Virus record (IMG/VR): IMGVR_UViG_3300036985_005814
Coordinates: 1-64,000 of that record
Strand: one strand, 5' to 3'
DNA from: a virus
DNA length: 64,000 nucleotides
A program made the position numbers and the translations under genes. Below the pieces are notes generated by a model. The model did not search any database. It was not told where the DNA came from and worked only from the letters and a program-made list of their open reading frames with translations. Shown in pieces: positions 12,049-63,940 of the stretch; position 1 is the first letter of the stretch, and every line of letters starts with the position of its first letter.

Positions 12049-12150
12049 GTAAGCACACATTCGTGTCCCAAGGGTAGCTCTACGGAGACCACGCAGGAGT
12101 CCTCCTTGCCTGCACTACTTTCGGGAAAGAAGGAACACTTACTTGAAATC
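12047..12150 (+). other. Long 5' leader of the sheath gene
   Basis: About 100 untranslated bases with two weak hairpins: AGGA/TCCT around 12090-12110 with a small loop, and CTTT/AAAG around 12117-12130, followed by AGGAAC. No known riboswitch pattern. An in-frame ATG-like start at 12106 (TTG/CTG region) is possible but the protein it adds is not typical of sheaths. Most other late genes have leaders of 20-40 bases, so this one stands out. Confidence 0.35.
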
Positions 12151-15100
12151 ATGGCCACTTTTTCTCTAGGCGGTGGTGTAACCCCTGGCGCACCTGGTGT
12201 ATACATCAATGAGCGCGCCGGTGTTGTTGCAAACGCTGACATTGCCAATTTTAGCACTGTTTACATGCTGGTGGAAACTCCAGAAACAGTGCCCGTTACA
12301 GTATTCCCTTATAACACACCAACTCCGGTCACTTCGCTCAACGACTACTTCGCCCTTGTTGGCGGAAGCGTTCCCGAAAGTCGGATCCCCCTGCTGAGCT
12401 ACAACTGCGTCAACGAATTCTTCCAGAACGCACAGGTTGGCGACCTTCGCGTTGTTCGCGTTGGCACACCTGACCAAATCGTTGAGATTGAGATTCTTCC
12501 CAACGGTACCAAGCAGAGCAATGCTGGTCTTCCCTCGAACTTCGAGGCTGGAGACGTCGTTTACGCTCAACTCGTGATCAACGGGAATCGCCTTGTAGCA
12601 GGTGATGGGTCTACAGGTTACAACGCCGACGGAGAGTGGCTGGGTGTTCCGGTTACAATTCCCGTAGATTATATCGCCGGCGACGAAGTCAACAACCGTC
12701 GAATCTCCTCGGCTATCGCAACTGCAATTGCAGAAGCCATCGAGAGCAACCCGAGCGTTCGTAGCGCAGTCTACGTTCGTGACTTCGGTCTTGTGACAAC
12801 GATTAACCCTCTGTCCAACTCTGAAAATGCTTTCGTAAGCATTGCTGCTTCCACATTCGACGCCAACGTAAGCGTTGTTCCGCTGGTCCTGCCTGTTGGC
12901 GCCCAGTACGTAATGATGCAGAATGTTTACAACATTCAGAACATTGTTGGTCAGCAACAGAATCTGGAGAGAGTTCCTCAGGACTACATTCAGTGCATCA
13001 ACACTGCTTTCGATGGTCAGCAAGATCAGGGCTACCTGATTACTCCTACTGCATACGCTCAGTTTGATGCTGACGGCCGTGCTGCGATTGGAGCTGCTGC
13101 TGCCGAGCATTGCGCTAACAACAACTACAAGTGGATGGCACTTGCCGATCCCGGTCCTTTCCTTGTGACCGATGTCAACAAGTATAGCGTATACACTCCT
13201 CACCAACCCGCTGCTAACCTGGTTACCGGCCTCAAGTATCTGGTTGACAATGCCATGTACGAGTGGACCGGTGCCGATGTCACTTACGACAAGCTCACCT
13301 ACCAAGCTCTGATCGCTTCACCGACTGCAGAAACTGCCGTTACTCAGTCGAAGACTGCGACTCCGGTTGCTGCTGGGGAGAAAGTTGGTCTTCTGGATTC
13401 CGCCTCTTTCGAGGTTGATTCGATCGTTGGCGACACAATGGTTGTCCTCGACGTCCAGAACTACTGGCCGGTTTCCTACCAGATCCAAGAAGTTACTTTC
13501 AGTGGTGCTACGGGAGACATCCTGAGCACAATCGGGGAAGACGGAACAATCTTTGTTGTTGCTCCCCCATACGACCTGACAGCGACAGGCGATTACTCCT
13601 TCAACAACGTTTTCTTCGCTCTTGACGCTTCTAGTGCTGTTGCCGTCCTGAACGAAGTCATTGCTGCTGGTGGTTCGATCAACCTGACAACCCCAGTCAA
13701 TGCTGTGGACTTTGGCGGAAGCGTTGGAACATGTAACCTCACCTACGTTGTTCCCTTCTACAACCTGCCTCAGACAATTAACGGTCAAACTTCAAACCTT
13801 CTGCAGAACATTACTGGAGCTGCCCAGTATGTGAACACACTGCACCTTCCTGCTAGCATTCAGGAAGCCACCGCTAACTACCGTCTGAATTTCGTATCTC
13901 GTACAATCCTGGACCCCGATGCCTCGGTGGCTGGTTCCACCGGACCCTACACAGGTGCGGCTCAGATTACTTGCGTCGGCCACGGTTTAACAAACGGTCA
14001 GAAACTGTACTTCACTCAACCAGTGAAGACAAACCTTGGTGCAAACCTTTTCCGTGCAACAACCAAGATTTCCGAGGTGCTTTACTACGTTAAAGTGATT
14101 GATGCGGACACCTTCAGCCTGGCTGAAAGCCTGACTGCTTACACCAGTGGTGCCTTCGTAACAATCCCGAGCGGAACATCGTCTCTGGTGTCGAGCCCCA
14201 CGATCTTCTACACGAAAGTTCTTGGTGGTGAGGCAACTTCGGCCACCCTGGCGGAACTTTCTGTTGTTCCGTTTATTCGCGGTAGAAAGTACGGCCTGAA
14301 CAGTGGCCAGATTGCATCGGAAGCTTCTGTTGCTGATGCTGCCCCGGCACCTGCAACATCCAACCCTGCCGTTTCAATCTTCTTCAACAACAGTCTGACT
14401 GCTCTTGGAGTTGGTCTTGTTTCCCCGTTCGGTGAAAACCCCACCGCCGGTTGGCTGCCTAAGCTTACTCTCACAGCCCCTGGTTCTTCTTCTACAACTC
14501 TTGAGAACTGGTACTGTACGCCTACTGTTGATCAAAACTTCGCGTCCCAGGCTTTCCTGGTTCCTTCGGTTGAACCCATTCTTGGCGGCTCTTACAACCC
14601 CACGGGAACATCTACCAAAGGTCCAATTTCTACTCTGGGCAGTGTCACTGGCGGAACCGGGTATACTAACGGAACTTACTTAAATGTTGCCCTTACCGGT
14701 GGAACAGGCAGTGGTGCTACAGCTGATATCACCGTTGCTGCTGGTATCGTTACTGTTGTTACCCTCACGAACGGAGGTTTTGGTTACACAGCGGCGGATT
14801 CCCTGTCTGCTCCTACCTCCGTCATCGGTAGTGGAACACTATTCGCAGTTCCCGTTGGCGCCATCACGGCCGGGATTGGTATCCTATCCCTTGCAAAACC
14901 TTATGCTCAGGCCGCTGGTCTGGTTAATGGGTCCGGTAGAGTTGACTTCCAGGGTCAAATTACCAAGTTAACTGGTGTTTACTTCGACGTAATTACAGCT
15001 AGTGGTTTTGCCCCTGACGGCACTACTCCCGTGATCATTGGTGATCGGATTGCTGTTATCTACAACGGAAGCTCCTACTCCTGGGCCGTGGTTCCTGCTG

Positions 15101-16035
15101 ATGGCGATCTTTCCACCGTGGGTCAGCCCTGCTACGGCTCACAAGTGGGTCTCGACTTCACTCCGGAAACGACTCCTCCGTCAATCCTGTGGCGTTTCGA
15201 TCCTATCACTTCCACCGAAATCATCAATGATGCTCTTCGTGGAGTTGGTTTCAACGGTGTTCCCCAAGCTGAGTTCATCGAAGCCGGTGTTGATAACGTG
15301 AACCGTCTGTACACAGATAGTCAGCGTTATTTCCAACCCTTTGGTTTCATCGCGTACTACGGTCCGTATATCGAGAACGCTTCGGGTCAGTGGATTCCTC
15401 CTTCACCTTACGTGACTGGAATCGCCCTGCGTCGTTACCGTGCGGAAGGTTACCAGTTCCCGCCTGCCGGCGTCAAGTATCAACTTGCCGACGCTGTGGC
15501 TGCCCAGATTCCGATCAACTCGGCTCAGCAGAACCTGCTGAATCCGGACGGTTGCAACGCAATTCGTACCCTGCCTGGTTATCCGACGAGCGCAGTGTTC
15601 GTTTGGGGCGGAAGAACTCGTGTGAACTCGGACGACGCTCAGCAGCGCCTGTATCAGTTCGTAAACACTCGCGTCATTCTGAACGTTGTTTACGGCTCGC
15701 TGAGAAACGCTTTCGACAGTCAGATCTTCAATGTGATCGACGGTTTCGGCGTTGCCTTCAACCAGATCATCTCTGTTGGAAACAGCGTTCTAAACCAGCT
15801 GTACTCGCGTGGTGCCCTGTTCGGTGCTCGCCCAAGCGACGCCTTCCAGGTTATCTGCGACTCTCGCATCAACCCTCCAGCGTCACTTGAGAACGGAATC
15901 GTCAACGCTAAAGTGTTTGTAACTCCTGTTCCAACTCTGGAAAGAATCCAAATCGACCTGATTCGGGTTGCCATTGGTCAGATGCAGAACGAGCTGAATG
16001 CTCAAGGACTGGGAACTAACAACACTGGTTTCTAA
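12151..16035 (+). CDS. Tail sheath protein, oversized
   Basis: A 1294-residue contractile tail sheath. The N-terminus has TPGAPGVYINERAG, the standard sheath opening, and the C-terminal 250 residues hold the conserved sheath core (DALRGVGFNGVPQAEFIEAG onward: 'NPDGCNAIRTLPGYPTSAVF' then WGGRTR, 'YSRGALFGARPSDAFQVICD'). T4 gp18 has 659 residues and Mu-type sheaths about 490, so roughly 600 residues here are insertions. One insertion (about residues 825-905) is the 'GGTGYTNGTY...GGTGSGATADITV' beta module that also occurs in the baseplate J-like protein and fibre proteins of this window. The start at 12151 (ATGGCCACTTTT) is preferred over a longer frame from 12106. Insertions may decorate the tail exterior. 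Confidence 0.9.
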   Translation: MATFSLGGGVTPGAPGVYINERAGVVANADIANFSTVYMLVETPETVPVTVFPYNTPTPVTSLNDYFALVGGSVPESRIPLLSYNCVNEFFQNAQVGDLRVVRVGTPDQIVEIEILPNGTKQSNAGLPSNFEAGDVVYAQLVINGNRLVAGDGSTGYNADGEWLGVPVTIPVDYIAGDEVNNRRISSAIATAIAEAIESNPSVRSAVYVRDFGLVTTINPLSNSENAFVSIAASTFDANVSVVPLVLPVGAQYVMMQNVYNIQNIVGQQQNLERVPQDYIQCINTAFDGQQDQGYLITPTAYAQFDADGRAAIGAAAAEHCANNNYKWMALADPGPFLVTDVNKYSVYTPHQPAANLVTGLKYLVDNAMYEWTGADVTYDKLTYQALIASPTAETAVTQSKTATPVAAGEKVGLLDSASFEVDSIVGDTMVVLDVQNYWPVSYQIQEVTFSGATGDILSTIGEDGTIFVVAPPYDLTATGDYSFNNVFFALDASSAVAVLNEVIAAGGSINLTTPVNAVDFGGSVGTCNLTYVVPFYNLPQTINGQTSNLLQNITGAAQYVNTLHLPASIQEATANYRLNFVSRTILDPDASVAGSTGPYTGAAQITCVGHGLTNGQKLYFTQPVKTNLGANLFRATTKISEVLYYVKVIDADTFSLAESLTAYTSGAFVTIPSGTSSLVSSPTIFYTKVLGGEATSATLAELSVVPFIRGRKYGLNSGQIASEASVADAAPAPATSNPAVSIFFNNSLTALGVGLVSPFGENPTAGWLPKLTLTAPGSSSTTLENWYCTPTVDQNFASQAFLVPSVEPILGGSYNPTGTSTKGPISTLGSVTGGTGYTNGTYLNVALTGGTGSGATADITVAAGIVTVVTLTNGGFGYTAADSLSAPTSVIGSGTLFAVPVGAITAGIGILSLAKPYAQAAGLVNGSGRVDFQGQITKLTGVYFDVITASGFAPDGTTPVIIGDRIAVIYNGSSYSWAVVPADGDLSTVGQPCYGSQVGLDFTPETTPPSILWRFDPITSTEIINDALRGVGFNGVPQAEFIEAGVDNVNRLYTDSQRYFQPFGFIAYYGPYIENASGQWIPPSPYVTGIALRRYRAEGYQFPPAGVKYQLADAVAAQIPINSAQQNLLNPDGCNAIRTLPGYPTSAVFVWGGRTRVNSDDAQQRLYQFVNTRVILNVVYGSLRNAFDSQIFNVIDGFGVAFNQIISVGNSVLNQLYSRGALFGARPSDAFQVICDSRINPPASLENGIVNAKVFVTPVPTLERIQIDLIRVAIGQMQNELNAQGLGTNNTGF

Positions 16036-52090: not shown

Positions 52091-52603
52091 ATGCGGAAAG
52101 ATTCAATTTCTGACAAGGCTATTGAACAAGCCTACTTGATTTACTCAGAGCGGGGACATCAGATCCTCGATTACTCTCACACACCCACAGATTACGCTCG
52201 CGGCACAGTGATGGAGCCCGAGAACACGTCTGTGATCAACTCCCGTTTCGGTGAGCTTCTGCCGGAAAGCATTCGTGACGGCGGGGAGTACGACAGCATT
52301 TCTGAACAAGAAAATTCCCTTAATCTGCGCATCGACTCTCTGCAAAACGAGATGCGTACTTCACGCATGCGTGGCAATTTCAAAGGGCTGCAAGCTCAGA
52401 TGAAAGAAATGCACAACCTGATCAAAGCGAAAGAAGCTCTCGATGCGAAACTCGCAACTCTTGATCTTGGCCGCAAACAAATGGACGATTACGATCGAAC
52501 AATGAATCAGGACGACTCCTACTCCGAACAGATTCAGTCCGTCGGTTCTCGCATCGCTGAACTCGAAGCCAAACTGCAAGAGTACCGGGAGAGCACAAAG
52601 TGA
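52091..52603 (+). CDS. Island protein with N-terminal motif and coiled coil
   Basis: A 170-residue protein. N-terminus DSISDKAIEQAYLIYSERGH matches the island's helix pattern. Residues about 75-170 are a coiled coil (NSLNLRIDSLQNEMRTSRMR and SRIAELEAKLQEYRE). Ends in an overlap with the kinase gene: the GTG at 52600 lies over this gene's TGA. This arrangement ties its expression to the kinase. Confidence 0.6.
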   Translation: MRKDSISDKAIEQAYLIYSERGHQILDYSHTPTDYARGTVMEPENTSVINSRFGELLPESIRDGGEYDSISEQENSLNLRIDSLQNEMRTSRMRGNFKGLQAQMKEMHNLIKAKEALDAKLATLDLGRKQMDDYDRTMNQDDSYSEQIQSVGSRIAELEAKLQEYRESTK

Positions 52604-54528
52604 GAAAAAGGTGCAGCCGTAGTAAATCCTGTGGAGCGGGTTGCATCAGCAATGCAAAATCTTGCAGACTCAATTTCCCCACAGCCGTCAATGGCATCTT
52701 AAACAAGGCGTCGGACCAGGTCGGAGTTGTTGAACTTTACCGTGCCGCTGCTGCGGGTGGTAAGCGTGGTAACGCTGCTCAGTTTAACCGAATCAGAAAA
52801 GAACTGCGTCAAGAACTTGGTAGAAATATCCGCGCAGGTGAGGACGCTCGCGAGCTAAAACGGCGCCTTGTTGCAGCCGGGGTGATCCCTGCTCGCGGAG
52901 CAAAACCGAAATCCGAGGAAGATGCCGGACAGATTTTCCAAAACGCCGTTCAAAAACCGGTTTCAGTTCCTTCCGCTCTTCGTAAAGAGTTGCAGCAGCT
53001 GGCTGCGAAAGACCAACAAGAGAAGATTGCCTCAAAACCTGACGAGCTGTACGGAGCATGGGATACGAACGCTCTCGTCAAGTTTCGTAAAGGTTTTTCA
53101 AATCTGGGGGCGGACTATCAAGGGGCCAAAGATAGAATTGACCGTGAGTTAGCTCGCCGGAAAGCGCAAGAGCCTGAAAAACCAGTAGTTCTCGAACCTC
53201 GTCAACTGGACAAATCGCCAGGTGCTCGCACGAGAACGGTTCTCCCGCCAAAGAGGACGGTAGCCACCGAAGAGGTGATGGATGATATTTCACGCCTCAT
53301 GAAAGGTGAGTCGCCACAGAACATCTCGATGGTGGGCGACAACAGCGCACGAGTTAAAATCAAGTCACAAATTGGTCAGCTTCAATCCGTTCTCGGACTT
53401 GGCGCCCAAACCCGTAAAGAAGTTGGCCGTGACCTAGAGGGACTTATCGATGAAGCTTGGAATTTGCGAAATAACTTAAAATCGCAACTTTTGCGGGTAA
53501 AGCCGGGTCCGCTTCGCGACAAGCTGGTTGATCGGCTCGTTGTTGTGGAAGAGGCGATTAAAGGTCCACAAACAAAAGCAACCGGAAACGTTCGCTACGC
53601 TCGTGAAGATGCGAGAGATCACGACGGCGATATGCTGAGCAAGGGAATTTCCCGTGAACTTGGCAACAAGTCTTACCGCTGGGAAGATTCTTACGGCTCA
53701 GGCTCTACTCTGCTCGGCAGGGGGTCATACGGCACCGTTCTTCGCGAGCCGAACAAAGGGAACGCCATCAAGAGAGGAGAAGTTGGTAAAATTGAAGCCG
53801 ATTTGATTGATCGCCTTGGAAAAGTTGACCTTGGACCGAAACTCCTTGCCGCTCAACTTGACGGAGATTCTCAATACAACCCCGGTACAAAGATCGGTCG
53901 CGTTGCCATGGGCGTTGTTGCCGGAAGCCCGATCGGTTCAAAAGCGCCTGACAAGGAAATCGGCGGCGTCAAAGTTGCTGACGCATACTGGGTTGCTCGC
54001 GCGAAACTCCACAGAATGGGAATCGCCCACAACGATATGCACATTGACAACGTTCTTGTGGACCGCAAAGGTCAAGCTCGTTTCGTTGACATGGGTCTTG
54101 CTCAAGATTCACCGAAAGCGGCGTTAGCGGAGGCCATGGGGGCATTCTCTCCACCATCAAGAGCTGTGGCAGACCGGGGCAGAGGCGCCGCAGGGCAAGG
54201 AGATTGGCAAGTCCGCAGATGGGAAGGAACGGGTGGACAGCTGCTTAATCGCTATGAGCTGGAGCTGAACTATGGTGGGGGAAGGGGGGACGCCAATAGT
54301 GCGCAAAAGGAGCTTGAAGCAAAAGCACCAGTTCTTGCCCGTATACATGACAACAAAGGCGCTGTTCAATACGAGATGAAGAGAGACGGTTTCACCCTCG
54401 ATGATATTGCCACGGTGATCGACCACGGGATTCGCTCCCCGATGGAGACTTACGAGCAGGGTGTTTGGGCTAAAATGACGAATGAACAGGCGCAAAAATA
54501 CATCTCGATTCTTTACGAGGGGGTTTGA
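52600..54528 (+). CDS. Protein kinase-fold protein with N-terminal four-Cys module
   Basis: A 642-residue protein, GTG start in a GTGA overlap. N-terminus: C5, C11, C15, C22, i.e. C-x5-C-x3-C-x6-C, as in the 44536 protein. About residues 30-360 are helical and charged. From about 369 comes a complete kinase-like core: LGRGSYGTV (glycine loop), AIKRG (ATP lysine), KIEADLI (helix C Glu), HNDMHIDN (catalytic Asp, Asn; about 478-485) and VDMG (metal Asp, in place of DFG). So all key residues are present and it should be active. The HxDxHxDN form resembles RIO/APH-like kinases. It may be a virion-delivered or late regulator; cellular target is unknown. Confidence 0.75.
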   Translation: MRKRCSRSKSCGAGCISNAKSCRLNFPTAVNGILNKASDQVGVVELYRAAAAGGKRGNAAQFNRIRKELRQELGRNIRAGEDARELKRRLVAAGVIPARGAKPKSEEDAGQIFQNAVQKPVSVPSALRKELQQLAAKDQQEKIASKPDELYGAWDTNALVKFRKGFSNLGADYQGAKDRIDRELARRKAQEPEKPVVLEPRQLDKSPGARTRTVLPPKRTVATEEVMDDISRLMKGESPQNISMVGDNSARVKIKSQIGQLQSVLGLGAQTRKEVGRDLEGLIDEAWNLRNNLKSQLLRVKPGPLRDKLVDRLVVVEEAIKGPQTKATGNVRYAREDARDHDGDMLSKGISRELGNKSYRWEDSYGSGSTLLGRGSYGTVLREPNKGNAIKRGEVGKIEADLIDRLGKVDLGPKLLAAQLDGDSQYNPGTKIGRVAMGVVAGSPIGSKAPDKEIGGVKVADAYWVARAKLHRMGIAHNDMHIDNVLVDRKGQARFVDMGLAQDSPKAALAEAMGAFSPPSRAVADRGRGAAGQGDWQVRRWEGTGGQLLNRYELELNYGGGRGDANSAQKELEAKAPVLARIHDNKGAVQYEMKRDGFTLDDIATVIDHGIRSPMETYEQGVWAKMTNEQAQKYISILYEGV

Positions 54529-59079: not shown

Positions 59080-61299
59080 ATGGCCAATTCGACCCCAATT
59101 CAATTACTACGTTCCAAGGCTTTCCGGCAACGACCAGACCCTCAATATTTACTAGAAGGTCAACCTGCAGTAAATATCAACGAGTTTGAACCCGGACTTT
59201 TCTTTGCGGACGCGGCTGCCCAACTTTTCAAGGTTGGGCCTACTGCCGTTGGACCGACAGCACCGAACTCAGGCATTTCCGGCTCGGGAGCAGAGTTTCT
59301 TCTGACGGGAGCTGTTACTGCAGCATCGGTTAATGCTGGCGGCACCGCTTACGCGGTAAATAACCTGTTGACTGTCCTTGGTGGTACCGGGACGCCGGCA
59401 GTTCTAAAAGTTACTGCTGTTTCCCTGACAGGTGCAATCACCTCGGTCAGTGTTCAAAGTGCTGGTAGTTATACCACTTTCCCCGTCTCTCCTGTCATCG
59501 TAACAGGGGGAGCGGGTTCCGCAGCGTCTTTTAACTTGAGTGGCGGAGTTACATCCGCAAACATTTCTTTCGGCGGCACTGGATACCTTGTAAACGACAT
59601 TCTAAACTTGGCCGGAGGCACCGGGCTTTCAGCAGCTCTGCAGGTTTCTTCTGTTTCTGGTGGGTCGGTAACGGGAGTCACTGTTTTAGCGTCTGGAAGT
59701 TACTCTGTGTTTCCGGTTGCACCCGTAAGCGTAAGGGAGAGCTCTGGGCCTGGCGGGAACAGTATCGGAGAACAGTGGTTAGACACCTCCAACCCAAATG
59801 CGCCTGGACTCAAAGTTTTCGACGGTGCTCGTTGGAGAGGTATCACCCCGATCTCGAACACTCTTTGGGTAGACGTGAATGGGGACGACATCAACGATGG
59901 AACAAGTCCGCAGACTGCGAAAAGAACGATCAAGAGCGCCCTCGCTCTTGCGACAGCTGGAACTCAAATTCGAGTTGCTTCCGGTAACTACGAAGAAGCG
60001 AACCCTTTAATTTTTCCTTTCCCCGATATTTCGATTGTCGGAGCCGATCTTAGGTCCACAATCATTGAACTCTTGAACCCGGACGGCGATTTATTCCAGG
60101 TTCTTAATGGGTGTTATGTTCAGAATTTTTCCTTTGTAGGCTCAGTCAACCTTATACCGAACCCCCTAAACCCTTTGGAGCAAATCCAAGGTTACGGCAT
60201 TATGTCGTTCAAGGAAACTGGGTCAGGTGTCATCACGCAAAGCCCTTACGTTCAAAACTGCACAAACTTTGTGGAGAACAGCATCGGCTTAAATGTCAAT
60301 GGCAACAAGGCAGGTGGCTTGAAGAGCATGGTTCTCGATAGCTTTACGCAATACAACCCTAACGGGCTGGGCGTCAAAGTTTACAATCTAGGTTACTGTC
60401 AAGTTGTGAGTATGTTCACAATCTGCTGTGACAAATCCGTTCTGGCGGAAACTGGAGGCTTAGTTAGTGTTACCAATAGTAACTCCGACTTTGGAAATTA
60501 CGGGATGTATGCCGACGGCACTGGCCCTCTAGAGCAATCTGGAGAGCTTGTTAGTTCAACTATCAACAACAGCGTCTTCAGTCTGGATAATCTAACTACA
60601 GGTCAAGTGCCCTATGTGGGGCAAGTGATTACGGTTGGGGAATTGTACTATAATGTTGGCTCATTTGAAATTACCAACCCCGGAAGCGGATATACAAGCA
60701 ATCCTACTGTAACGGTTTCGATTGGAACAGGGCCGAATGCCATTGCGGCACAAGGAATTGCGATTATCGACAACAATCAGCTGATTGGGATCGAAGTTGC
60801 GTCTTCTGGACAAAACTACACCGCTTCGGACACGATCACGGTCACGATCACAGGGGGAGGAGGAGCAAGTGCGGCAGCAACCGCAGTCAAGAACCCTGTG
60901 TATTACACAGTCGCTGGCGTTACCGAACCCTTCACAGGAGTCGGAGGCACAGTAACGGTTGCCATTCAGGAAAACCTGCCTTACACACCGTCTACGGGTG
61001 ATACCGTTAACTTCTGGCGCGTAAGTCGAATCATTGCCAACTCTCACTGTATGGAATACGTGGGAAGTGGAATTGACATCAACACTGCTGTTCCCTTCAC
61101 AGGCGGAACTGCCATCCAAGCTAACGAAGTCATTCAGATCAACGGCGGTCGCGTGGCGATTACAAGCACGGACCAACTTGGTGACTTCCGCGTTGGCGAA
61201 GACCTCGTGATTAATCAAAACACTGGAACAATCTCTGGCCAAGCGTTTAGAAAGTCGATCCTGGCCATCGTAATTCCTTACATCCTCGCCCTCTCTTGA
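59080..61299 (+). CDS. Tail fibre protein with GYT modules and beta-helix
   Basis: A 739-residue fibre. N-terminus LLRSKAFRQRPDPQYLLEGQ then PAVNINEFEPGLFFADAAAQ-like segment is a diverged copy of the attachment module at 54738. Residues about 70-220 hold two copies of the GGT(A/G)Y module and residues 525-605 another (GSGYTSNPTVTVSIGTG). The middle (270-400) has 'VDVNGDDINDGTSPQTAKRT' followed by beta-helix strands (DISIVGADLRSTIIELL). This fits a receptor-binding fibre of T4-like cyanophages. Ends 4 bases before the next ATG. Confidence 0.8.
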   Translation: MANSTPIQLLRSKAFRQRPDPQYLLEGQPAVNINEFEPGLFFADAAAQLFKVGPTAVGPTAPNSGISGSGAEFLLTGAVTAASVNAGGTAYAVNNLLTVLGGTGTPAVLKVTAVSLTGAITSVSVQSAGSYTTFPVSPVIVTGGAGSAASFNLSGGVTSANISFGGTGYLVNDILNLAGGTGLSAALQVSSVSGGSVTGVTVLASGSYSVFPVAPVSVRESSGPGGNSIGEQWLDTSNPNAPGLKVFDGARWRGITPISNTLWVDVNGDDINDGTSPQTAKRTIKSALALATAGTQIRVASGNYEEANPLIFPFPDISIVGADLRSTIIELLNPDGDLFQVLNGCYVQNFSFVGSVNLIPNPLNPLEQIQGYGIMSFKETGSGVITQSPYVQNCTNFVENSIGLNVNGNKAGGLKSMVLDSFTQYNPNGLGVKVYNLGYCQVVSMFTICCDKSVLAETGGLVSVTNSNSDFGNYGMYADGTGPLEQSGELVSSTINNSVFSLDNLTTGQVPYVGQVITVGELYYNVGSFEITNPGSGYTSNPTVTVSIGTGPNAIAAQGIAIIDNNQLIGIEVASSGQNYTASDTITVTITGGGGASAAATAVKNPVYYTVAGVTEPFTGVGGTVTVAIQENLPYTPSTGDTVNFWRVSRIIANSHCMEYVGSGIDINTAVPFTGGTAIQANEVIQINGGRVAITSTDQLGDFRVGEDLVINQNTGTISGQAFRKSILAIVIPYILALS

Positions 61300-61303
61300 T
61301 AAC

Positions 61304-61639
61304 ATGGCACTTCCATTAACAGTCTTTCAGACCATCCCAGTCGATGTCCCAGCCTCGGCAACCATTGTTTATACCGCTCCTGTTGGTTACAACTCTATTG
61401 TCCTCACAGCGCAAGTGGTTAACACCGCTGCCAACTCTCTAACTTTCTCGATGTCATTGAGACGAGGATCTACAGACTATCCTGTTGTGTACGATTACCC
61501 AATTCCCGCGAATGAAGTTCTTATTGCCTCCGGAGGAACTGCTGGTAAACTAGTTCTTCAAACTGGGGACTCGCTTAGAATCTCGGGGGCCGGTACCGAC
61601 CTAAAATTCACTTTAAGCGTTCTTGAAACTCTGGTGTAA
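61304..61639 (+). CDS. Small beta-rich fibre protein
   Basis: A 111-residue protein, almost all beta strands and loops (FQTIPVDVPASATIVYTAPV, LTFSMSLRRGSTDYPVVYDY). It resembles the small beta-sandwich tip proteins found after cyanophage fibre genes. It starts 4 bases after the fibre gene and three bases before the collagen-like gene. Likely a fibre cap. Confidence 0.6.
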   Translation: MALPLTVFQTIPVDVPASATIVYTAPVGYNSIVLTAQVVNTAANSLTFSMSLRRGSTDYPVVYDYPIPANEVLIASGGTAGKLVLQTGDSLRISGAGTDLKFTLSVLETLV

Positions 61640-61642
61640 ATT

Positions 61643-62596
61643 ATGGCAGGATTTTTTGACGGAAAAGTAATTCCTACCCCTCCTCTTGACGCTGACCCGC
61701 GCCGTTATATTGTCTTTGGACTCAAGGACGCTGAGCCGAATTTAGGGGTTCCTCTAGTAGATGGTTACTCGCTGGTTAGCACAGCGGACGGCGATAGAAG
61801 CTGGGCACCTGTACCCCCCGCTGGACCTCCTGGTCCAACTGGACCGATTGGACCGACTGGGAATACAGGCCCAACTGGGCCGGTGGGTCCCACTGGAACA
61901 GGGGCGCCGGGCCCTACTGGACCCACAGGAGACGTGGGACCTACGGGTCCAATCGGCCCTACGGGACCGGCTGGTGGTGGGATCTATGCCCTGTATCTTG
62001 ATGACATCAGCTCATCTTTCAACGGAACAGCGACTGTTTTCACACTTCAAGTCGGAGCTGTTAACCTCCCGGCGACAGTCGTTCAAACGGACTTACTCCT
62101 TTTTGTCGGGGGTTCTGTTCAACTTGCGGGGGACGGTTTTACTTGGAATGCGGCTACCAGCCAGGTAACATTTACGAGTGCCCCGGAAACTGGGTATACT
62201 TTTGTGGGCTGGGTGGTCAACAAAGACGCAAACCCTGGGCCAACAGGGGCACCGGGAACGCCGGGGTCAGCTGGTGGTCCTGGAAGCCCTGGCTCCCCTG
62301 GAGGACCTGGTCCAGCCGGTGCTCCTGGTCCGCCGGGGCCGTCGGGGTCAAATACACTTCCGCAGCAGGCTGTAGGAACCACAGTATATGGTCAACCTTT
62401 CACCGGCTTCGGCGCCGCCAACAATATACCGGGAGGGTCGGTTGTCAGCCCATGGTATGGGTCGGCAGGCACCGGGTTCCAGGGATTTGGGGGAACTTGG
62501 ATCACACATGGTCAAACGGAATGGCGTCAGGTGACCAACCCGCAATCAGGGAGCACCAACATCTACCGACCCGCCTCCGCGCAACGTATAGCCTGA
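61643..62596 (+). CDS. Collagen-like tail fibre protein
   Basis: A 317-residue protein with two collagen-like (Gly-X-Y) blocks: residues about 61-112 ([20 protein letters not shown] and on; Y mostly Thr) and about 199-236 ([12 protein letters not shown] then [21 protein letters not shown] often Pro). Between them is a beta-rich domain ([20 protein letters not shown]). C-terminal 80 residues form a Gly/Asn-rich knob ([27 protein letters not shown]). The triple helix would shape a thin trimeric fibre. It is directly upstream of a prolyl-4-hydroxylase-like gene, which makes modification of its prolines plausible. Confidence 0.85.
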
Positions 62597-62642
62597 TAAT
62601 TACTTTCAACTCTTGTCAAGAACAACAACAACTCTCATCACA

Positions 62643-63242
62643 ATGTCAAACCCACTGATTCAAATCGTTCCTACTCTTTCTTCGGAAGAAGTTCAAAGAG
62701 TTAACGAGTTTTGCGAGTCATACAAACAACGCTCAAAGAACACGGTTTTTTCTGGCAAAAGTCTCAAAGTGGATACCTCCATTCGATCGAGTGAAGGTTT
62801 CTCCCTAACGGAAGGACAGGAGATCACAAACCTATTGGCAAATTCGATTAACTCCGCACTGCTCGCATATCGAGACAAACTTGCGGAGGTTCACCCTTCC
62901 TTGACACACTACTCTTTGGCTCCCGGTGCAACCGGAACTCATTCTCACCGGGAAGGCATTCAAGTTCTGGAATACCGGCCAAACCAACAATATCATTTCC
63001 ACTACGACCAGAATTGGGACCGCAATCAACAAACTTTTTACAGAACAATTTCTGTTGTCTTGTACCTGACGTCCGACTTTGAAGGTGGTGGAACCGAGTT
63101 CGTGGATAAAGTTTACAAGCCACAACCGGGTGAAGCTCTGATCTTCCCTTCAAATTGGTGTTTCCCCCATTCGGGTCAACTGGTTACCTCCGGGATGAAG
63201 AGAGTTGCGGTTACGTGGTACTACGTGTACCCGGCAAAGTAA
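62643..63242 (+). CDS. 2OG-Fe(II) dioxygenase, prolyl 4-hydroxylase-like
   Basis: A 199-residue enzyme of the 2-oxoglutarate/Fe(II) superfamily. Iron ligands: H120 and D122 in YHFHYD and H176 in CFPHSG; the 2OG-binding Lys is K186, ten residues after the distal His. The pattern 'FEGGGTEFVDKVYKPQPGEA' then LIFPSNW is typical of prolyl 4-hydroxylases. ATG at 62643 is preferred; the frame extends back to 62613. It should hydroxylate a prolyl or other side chain using O2 and 2-oxoglutarate. Such genes are common in cyanophages, but its position next to a collagen-like protein suggests that substrate. Signal peptide absent. Confidence 0.8.
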   Translation: MSNPLIQIVPTLSSEEVQRVNEFCESYKQRSKNTVFSGKSLKVDTSIRSSEGFSLTEGQEITNLLANSINSALLAYRDKLAEVHPSLTHYSLAPGATGTHSHREGIQVLEYRPNQQYHFHYDQNWDRNQQTFYRTISVVLYLTSDFEGGGTEFVDKVYKPQPGEALIFPSNWCFPHSGQLVTSGMKRVAVTWYYVYPAK

Positions 63243-63277: not shown

Positions 63278-63595
63278 ATGGCTTACTCTTGTTCTCAACC
63301 TTTTGATTTCAGCGAAACCGCAACAGGAATCTCTCTGATCTGGGATCACCCAACTTTCGGCCCCATTCCTTTCCTGGCGATGCCCAACGACGTGGAACCA
63401 CACGGAGTTGAAATTTACTACGAAGCTTTAGCCGGTGAATACGGACCTGTGGTTTCCTACGCAGATTCCCACTGGTATTCCACAGTGGACGGAAATGTGT
63501 GGCAAGGTCAAACTTACGGTGTGGGCGGTTTGATGATTTCCCCGACCGGAGTGCAACCTCCCAACTCAACTCAAACACCTCCCCCACAATCTTGA
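63278..63595 (+). CDS. Hypothetical protein, fibre region
   Basis: A 105-residue protein, MAYSCSQPFDFSETATGISL..., beta-rich with a Pro/Thr-rich tail. ATG 63278 is preferred over an upstream in-frame ATG at 63155 inside the dioxygenase gene. No family recognised. Likely a small fibre or assembly component. Confidence 0.55.
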   Translation: MAYSCSQPFDFSETATGISLIWDHPTFGPIPFLAMPNDVEPHGVEIYYEALAGEYGPVVSYADSHWYSTVDGNVWQGQTYGVGGLMISPTGVQPPNSTQTPPPQS

Positions 63596-63601
63596 TTCAA
63601 A

Positions 63602-63940
63602 ATGTTACAACCTCAAGAACTATTCGTCAGCTGGGACGGCAATGGCTGGCGTCAATCCCCCTTTAAGTGGGACGAGTCCCTCGAGAATTCACAGGCATAC
63701 ATGAACTCTCAGATGGACTCTTTTGCCTACACAATCCTCTCTCCAACCGACTGGTATGTCACCCGCCAGGTTGAAGCGGGCGTTCCTGTTCCCGCAGAAA
63801 TGGGGGCGTGGCGGCAGGAGATTCGAGACGCGGCCAGAATCAAGAGGCAAAGTGTCATGGAATGCGATACGAAAGAAGAGCTGAATACCTACACCACGAG
63901 CGAAGAATACCTGTTCTGGCCGGATCAACCTCAAGTCTGA
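63602..63940 (+). CDS. Tail fibre assembly chaperone-like protein
   Basis: A 112-residue protein. DWYVTRQVEAGVPVPAEMGA followed by WRQEIRDAARIKRQ resembles the conserved core of the tail fibre assembly family (DW.V.R..E.G.P.P.E...R...R), which acts as chaperone for trimerisation of fibres. The length is at the lower end of this family. It lies six bases after 63278-63595 and follows all fibre genes, as expected. Confidence 0.6.
   Translation: MLQPQELFVSWDGNGWRQSPFKWDESLENSQAYMNSQMDSFAYTILSPTDWYVTRQVEAGVPVPAEMGAWRQEIRDAARIKRQSVMECDTKEELNTYTTSEEYLFWPDQPQV

Follow-up and report, generated by a model that had tools for sequence, protein, structure and literature searches.

The locus studied here raises the question of whether a tailed phage can modify its own collagen-like fibres with an enzyme that it encodes. 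The window, that is, the whole stretch of DNA analysed, covers positions 1 to 64,000 of a viral record 70,327 bases long (IMG/VR IMGVR_UViG_3300036985_005814), with tail, terminase, and fibre genes. Between positions 61643 and 63242, a gene for a collagen-like fibre is followed by a gene for a prolyl 4-hydroxylase (P4H)-like enzyme. The initial annotation proposed from this arrangement that the phage hydroxylates its own fibre and would thus carry a new type of virion modification. After the analyses described below, we consider it probable that a phage P4H, made with the fibre genes, hydroxylates prolines of the phage's own collagen-like tail fibres and stabilises them. The nearest relatives of the window enzyme among named phages are those of cyanophages, and a near-DNA search of phage records with the window gave no match.

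The collagen-like tail-fibre protein is a 317-aa ORF (61643..62596, on the + strand, as are all the features of the fibre gene run given here). It consists of an N-terminal domain, a first collagen run, a middle beta-rich domain, a second collagen run, and a C-terminal domain. It scored 31.0 bits against the Pfam Collagen family PF01391 (cut-off 27.2) and matched PHROG tail-fibre families (E 5e-16 and 1e-10), and its neighbours match fibre PHROGs as well. Run 1a has nine Gly-X-Y triplets (61823..61903), with Y mostly Thr and X mostly Pro, run 1b has eight (61910..61981), and run 2 has 13 (62237..62353). When the protein was shuffled 20,000 times, the longest Gly-X-Y run was 8 triplets and the mean 3.1. 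The composition described in the initial annotation was confirmed by counting: Pro is at Y in most triplets of run 2 (8/13), which are the proposed hydroxylation sites, and Thr is at Y in 9/17 triplets over runs 1a and 1b, where Pro is mostly at X. The fibre chains would trimerise as triple helices.

The adjacent genes set the context. Upstream are a 739-aa tail fibre protein (59080..61299; PHROG_17885 tail fibre, E 2e-128) and a small 111-aa protein (61304..61639; PHROG_1276, of unknown function, E 2e-8) that belongs to the same run of fibre genes. Downstream of the enzyme are a 105-aa protein (63278..63595) with a PHROG_1795 tail-fibre match (E 1e-6) and a 112-aa protein (63602..63940) with a weak tail-fibre-assembly match (PHROG_4912, E 2e-4). 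Beyond the window end, the same record holds three more collagen-like ORFs (63995-64672, 68262-69059, and 69116-69667). The second of them contains a long array of mostly GTP, GTD, and GGP triplets, with Pro at most Y positions, and also contains the middle domain found in the window collagen protein. Altogether, at least four collagen-like ORFs and the P4H-like gene lie within one 70 kb record.

Two other ORFs of the window drew our attention. A 642-aa ORF inside the tail and fibre run (52600-54528) weakly resembles protein kinases (Pfam Pkinase 3e-5, which is below the cut-off). In a 1309-aa ORF (12106-16035), a fibre-like region is joined to a tail-sheath domain at the C-terminus (PHROG_17610); for a sheath protein, this ORF is unusually long.

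The second gene of the pair encodes a P4H-like 2OG-Fe(II) dioxygenase of 199 aa (62643..63242), recognised by Pfam, PDB profile search, and AlphaFold. It starts with an ATG located 47 bp downstream of the collagen ORF, within the run of fibre genes; a TTG at 62613 is merely an alternative start. Its score against Pfam 2OG-FeII_Oxy_3 was 57 bits (cut-off 27). The Fe(II)-binding HxD motif H120-Y-D122 (63000..63008), the distal Fe(II)-binding H176 within FPSNWCFPH (63168..63170), and K186, the 2-oxoglutarate-binding Lys as in P4Hs (63198..63200), are all in place. H120, D122, H176, and K186 are invariant in an alignment of 56 family members, and their numbering is right for the ATG start. The initial annotation was also correct in reading the enzyme as complete.

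Several comparisons assign this enzyme to the P4Hs. The eight best sequences in a PDB profile search were all P4Hs (E 1e-14 to 5e-6), among them those of Bacillus (1e-14), Chlamydomonas (1e-10), PBCV-1 (4e-8), and human C-P4H-II (5e-6). The AlphaFold model, computed from an alignment of the window sequence with its IMG/VR relatives, reached a pLDDT of 93 and has a predicted double-stranded beta-helix fold like that of P4Hs and PHDs; a single-sequence model with a pLDDT of 39 was discarded. The top Foldseek matches to the accepted model were P4Hs and PHDs, with TM of about 0.6-0.7, and the best were an algal P4H with a (Ser-Pro)5 peptide, the P. putida P4H, the PBCV-1 viral collagen P4H, and PHD2. 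Thus, every testable feature of the sequence and the model supports membership of the P4H family. The enzyme is probably active, and its product would be 4-hydroxyproline.

Two other identities were considered and set aside. The PiuC/PKHD identity, a name given in P-SSM2, was rejected with 24.8 bits against the NCBIfam PKHD equivalog (cut-off 143). A cellular origin of the enzyme was rejected too, as the GTDB scan gave only three loci, on phage-looking contigs from MAGs or single-cell data.

To see how regularly the two genes go together, IMG/VR and GTDB contigs and reference phages were scanned and reduced to one locus per contig. The first set comprised 68 enzyme loci preceded by 4 kb or more of sequence. 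Under a strict criterion of at least eight uninterrupted Gly-X-Y triplets, 62/68 loci were apparently positive; five of these were Gly-rich GGX runs, and their removal left 57/68. Loci that seemed collagen-free under this criterion (L073, L077, L095, L110-L112, and L050/L067/L068) carry short interrupted GPPGPPG tracts. A relaxed criterion also counted such tracts and defined as Pro-bearing those with GXP-GXP or GPX-GPX tandems. It gave collagen-like tracts in 68/68 enzyme loci, Pro-bearing tandems in 62/68, and GXP-GXP in 48/68. Since the relaxed criterion was set after the exceptions had been seen, we ran two further scans with other seeds on unused contigs: 21 contigs that had played no part in the criterion displayed collagen-like tracts in 21/21 and Pro-bearing tandems in 17/21. 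Pooling both sets, the tracts were present at 89/89 enzyme loci and Pro-bearing at 79/89.

The interrupted tracts have a structure of their own. In L050, L067, L068, and L077, GPPGPPG(P/S/D) motifs recur upstream of the enzyme at a regular period of 11, 13, or 19 aa. They lie in large fibre ORFs in which short collagen segments alternate with another spacer.

The ten enzyme loci without Pro tandems (10/89, about 11%) have collagen of the Gln/Thr or Lys type (L025, L035, L076, L098, L103, L118, L359, L364, L366, and L378). Either a second collagen gene lies off-contig, or the enzyme takes other residues, or the enzyme has changed.

For matched controls, we used a marker independent of the enzyme, the conserved fibre gene that P-SSM2 carries downstream of its enzyme gene (T4-GC 30). 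The control set contained 121 distinct marker loci, each preceded by 4.5 kb or more of sequence; 46 of them have the enzyme and 75 lack it. Pro-bearing collagen was found at 42/46 loci with the enzyme vs. 2/75 without it (Fisher p=2e-25), and at the level of lineage clusters in 22/25 vs. 2/59 (p=6e-15). Any collagen under the strict criterion was present in 38/46 vs. 16/75 (p=3e-11). The Pro content of the collagens was also lower without the enzyme (median about 2% and maximum 14% of X+Y) than with it (up to 60%; p=3e-6). In the window's own clade, Pro-tracts occur in 8/8 enzyme-bearing contigs; at related fibre loci where no enzyme was detected, the collagen is Pro-poor and of the GIQ type, and some of these contigs break off shortly beyond it. 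The co-occurrence of enzyme and collagen genes in related phages, which the initial annotation had left to be seen, is thus strongly positive from both sides. In more than 100 related phages, proline is found in the fibres almost only together with the enzyme gene, and therefore these fibres are probably hardened as animal collagen is.

One part of the initial annotation did not withstand the comparison, namely the emphasis on Y as the special position for proline. Tandems of the GPX-GPX type accompany the enzyme no less closely: at the enzyme-bearing marker loci, two or more of them occur in 41/46, vs. at least one GXP-GXP in 38/46, and GXP-GXP is missing from 24 of the 89 pooled enzyme loci. 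With proline at X as good an indicator of the enzyme as proline at Y, a preference for Y is at most tentative. This opens the door to another kind of collagen modification, in which the enzyme would act on Pro at X, form 3-hydroxyproline, or modify Lys at Y in Lys-type fibres. Prolyl 3-hydroxylase is among the weaker profile matches of the enzyme and the lysyl hydroxylase LH3 among the weaker single-sequence ones, and at several loci with the enzyme (L006, L053, L098, and L103), Y is most often Lys. However, both sequence and structure place the enzyme closest to prolyl 4-hydroxylases and PHDs, K186 is the 2OG lysine of the P4H type, and Lys-type collagens occur in only a minority of loci. We regard a fibre modification that is not mainly 4-hydroxylation of Pro at Y as unlikely. 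As an observation on the Lys-type fibres themselves, Lys is the commonest or leading residue at Y, in repeats of the GQKGEK type, in the enzyme-bearing loci L006, L053-L056, L098, L103, L366, and L378.

The proposed hydroxylation of fibre proline by the phage P4H also has to be weighed against the history of the region. Fibre clusters are generally known to recombine. The enzyme and the Pro-rich fibre gene adjoin in a high-turnover region, and the tree of the marker has 19 switches between presence and absence of the enzyme, as would suit two genes without functional link that travel as one recombining fibre cassette. Such linked transfer could inflate the association between the enzyme and Pro-collagen. 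Among 12 supported independent pairs, Pro-collagen changed in the same direction as the enzyme in about 11 and never in the opposite one (p about 0.001). Collagen of any composition changed with the enzyme in only about 5/12. The candidate reading that collagen itself rather than proline tracks the enzyme was rejected on this test: proline, more than collagen itself, follows the enzyme. Moreover, the Pro-bearing fibre ORFs near the enzyme fall into at least seven groups without detectable flanking homology, by a single-linkage grouping that merges generously. Their repeats vary (GPT, GTP, and GPPGPPGPS with a period of 11 or 13 aa), and so do their distances from the enzyme (about 0.05-5 kb). 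One hitchhiking gene would not give at least seven such groups with differing repeats and distances, which argues against the cassette, and we hold this explanation to be very improbable.

A host target deserves even less credence. Among the structural matches, the P. putida P4H in complex with EF-Tu ranks second, and the Bacillus P4H that modifies EF-Tu is found as well. It is thus conceivable that the enzyme acts on a host protein such as EF-Tu, tuning translation, with an incidental fibre neighbourhood. This leaves unexplained why the enzyme and Pro-collagen track each other over 12 independent contrasts and why the enzyme gene is kept within the fibre cluster in many contigs.

Since enzyme-negative contigs can be truncated, complete isolate genomes were examined too. 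The three with the enzyme subfamily (P-SSM2, S-CAM7, and ACG-2014f) have 68-242 Gly-X-Y matches each (3/3). Among the 18 without it, 17 have no Gly-X-Y match and P-TIM68 has three; 16/18 carry only distant 2OG-Fe paralogues and are nearly all collagen-free. The initial annotation had named homologous dioxygenases that always occur where no collagen-like fibre exists as the pattern that would speak against it. In the isolates and the contigs, this pattern is not that of the window enzyme's subfamily; the distant cyanophage paralogues, found in collagen-free genomes, do conform to it. These generic cyanophage oxygenases (PHROG_61, PHROG_81; T4-GC 104, and others) share the superfamily of the window enzyme and differ in their profile scores, below 65 bits vs. 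241-331 for subfamily members scored in the same search. The aligned paralogues L038 and L039 have Arg in the column of K186. Many 2OG-Fe(II) oxygenases are known in cyanophages, where they have been interpreted as nitrogen-metabolism or DNA-repair genes (PMC3037559, PMC9602691), and yet we see next to no chance that the window enzyme is such a generic auxiliary or repair enzyme (through 2OG drawdown, NtcA, or DNA repair), since these roles suit the paralogues, its subfamily is tied to collagen fibres, and the relatives of known structure that come nearest to it have peptidyl proline as their substrate.

Hydroxylation of the phage's own fibres by its P4H can be pictured as follows. The enzyme would be made together with the fibre proteins during infection and would take O2, Fe(II), and 2-oxoglutarate from the host. 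Pro in the Gly-X-Y segments of the tail fibres would be hydroxylated before or during the winding of three chains, which would then form a triple-helical rod linking the globular fibre domains. The expected benefit is a stiffer and more heat-stable rod. Computation establishes the fold, the active-site residues, the family, the gene adjacency, and the association of the enzyme with Pro-collagen across independent lineages. From these, we infer that collagen proline is the enzyme's substrate and fibre stability the benefit.

The closest known systems are viral. The orthologues at 40-46% identity (T4-GC 28) are PiuC of P-SSM2, a 2OG-Fe(II) oxygenase of ACG-2014f, and a "putative prolyl 4-hydroxylase" of S-CAM7. 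Like the window enzyme, they belong to a fibre cluster and are preceded by collagen-like ORFs; their annotations name no substrate. In ACG-2014f (gp018-gp019; L005 6914-8591), the hydroxylase orthologue and a glycosyltransferase gene, which lie downstream of a collagen ORF, have an overlap of 8 bp, and fibre hydroxylation followed by glycosylation is conceivable there. Among the cyanophage records, we also observed an odd annotation in S-PM2 (AJ630128; L207 9001-20340), where many annotated tRNA genes overlap with the 11 kb fibre ORF of the deposited record.

Acanthamoeba polyphaga mimivirus encodes collagens together with prolyl and lysyl hydroxylases (PMC9546862), so a virus with both is already known among giant viruses. 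The likeness lies in collagen-like proteins accompanied by 2OG-Fe(II) collagen hydroxylases (a collagen prolyl hydroxylase and L230). Mimivirus differs in being a giant eukaryotic virus whose L230 is a lysyl hydroxylase/glucosyltransferase that hydroxylates and glycosylates Lys (PMC9546862), whereas the window phage is tailed, its collagen is in tail-fibre ORFs, and the enzyme is inside the fibre cluster. No glycosyltransferase was seen beside the enzyme in the window, and no lysyl hydroxylase with a glycosyltransferase was found among the scanned ORFs neighbouring the window enzyme in this partial record. The link between a phage hydroxylase and its own fibre is strongly backed by comparative genomics, family, and gene context; the claim to a new type is not, as far as viruses in general are concerned. 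The novelty would lie in tailed phage virions, not in viral collagen plus hydroxylase as such.

PBCV-1 teaches caution. Its vCPH (PDB 5c5t), the third-best structural match, is a small single-domain viral P4H like the window enzyme, with about 20% identity to it, and acts on Pro-containing peptides. This P4H hydroxylates peptides in vitro, and yet hydroxyproline was sought in the virions without success (PMC7019647); hence, a P4H gene alone is no proof of a modified virion. In phages, collagen-like fibres by themselves are nothing new. E. coli prophage EPcl proteins have phage-borne Gly-X-Y triple-helix segments too and differ in coming without a hydroxylase (PMC3368898). The use of viral P4Hs has been called cryptic, with tail-fibre collagen named as a possible target (PMC9301287). 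In the literature searched, with few subscription journals and no bioRxiv preprints, we found no published link between a phage P4H and its own collagen fibre.

At the level of the group, the balance of the evidence tilts towards a large set of T4-like phages, cyanophages included, that makes hydroxyproline-stabilised collagen tail fibres. Prokaryotic viruses would repeatedly have acquired and lost a collagen maturation of the animal type together with fibre proline, whose use in phage collagen would depend on the hydroxylase.

If our reading is true, one clade among the numerous cyanophage 2OG-Fe(II) oxygenases that still lack an explanation would gain a substrate, and tailed phages would have a new kind of virion protein modification. 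This would contrast with the published view that bacteria and viruses lack prolyl hydroxylases, that their collagens are unhydroxylated, and that non-animal collagens have no preference for proline at Y (PMC3368898). Existing isolates such as P-SSM2 and S-CAM7 make the idea testable. Moreover, these phages may be a source of small P4Hs, each together with a short collagen of its own. Finally, fibres that bear proline with the enzyme and fibres that are poor in it without the enzyme would provide a natural comparison for understanding why collagen needs hydroxyproline.
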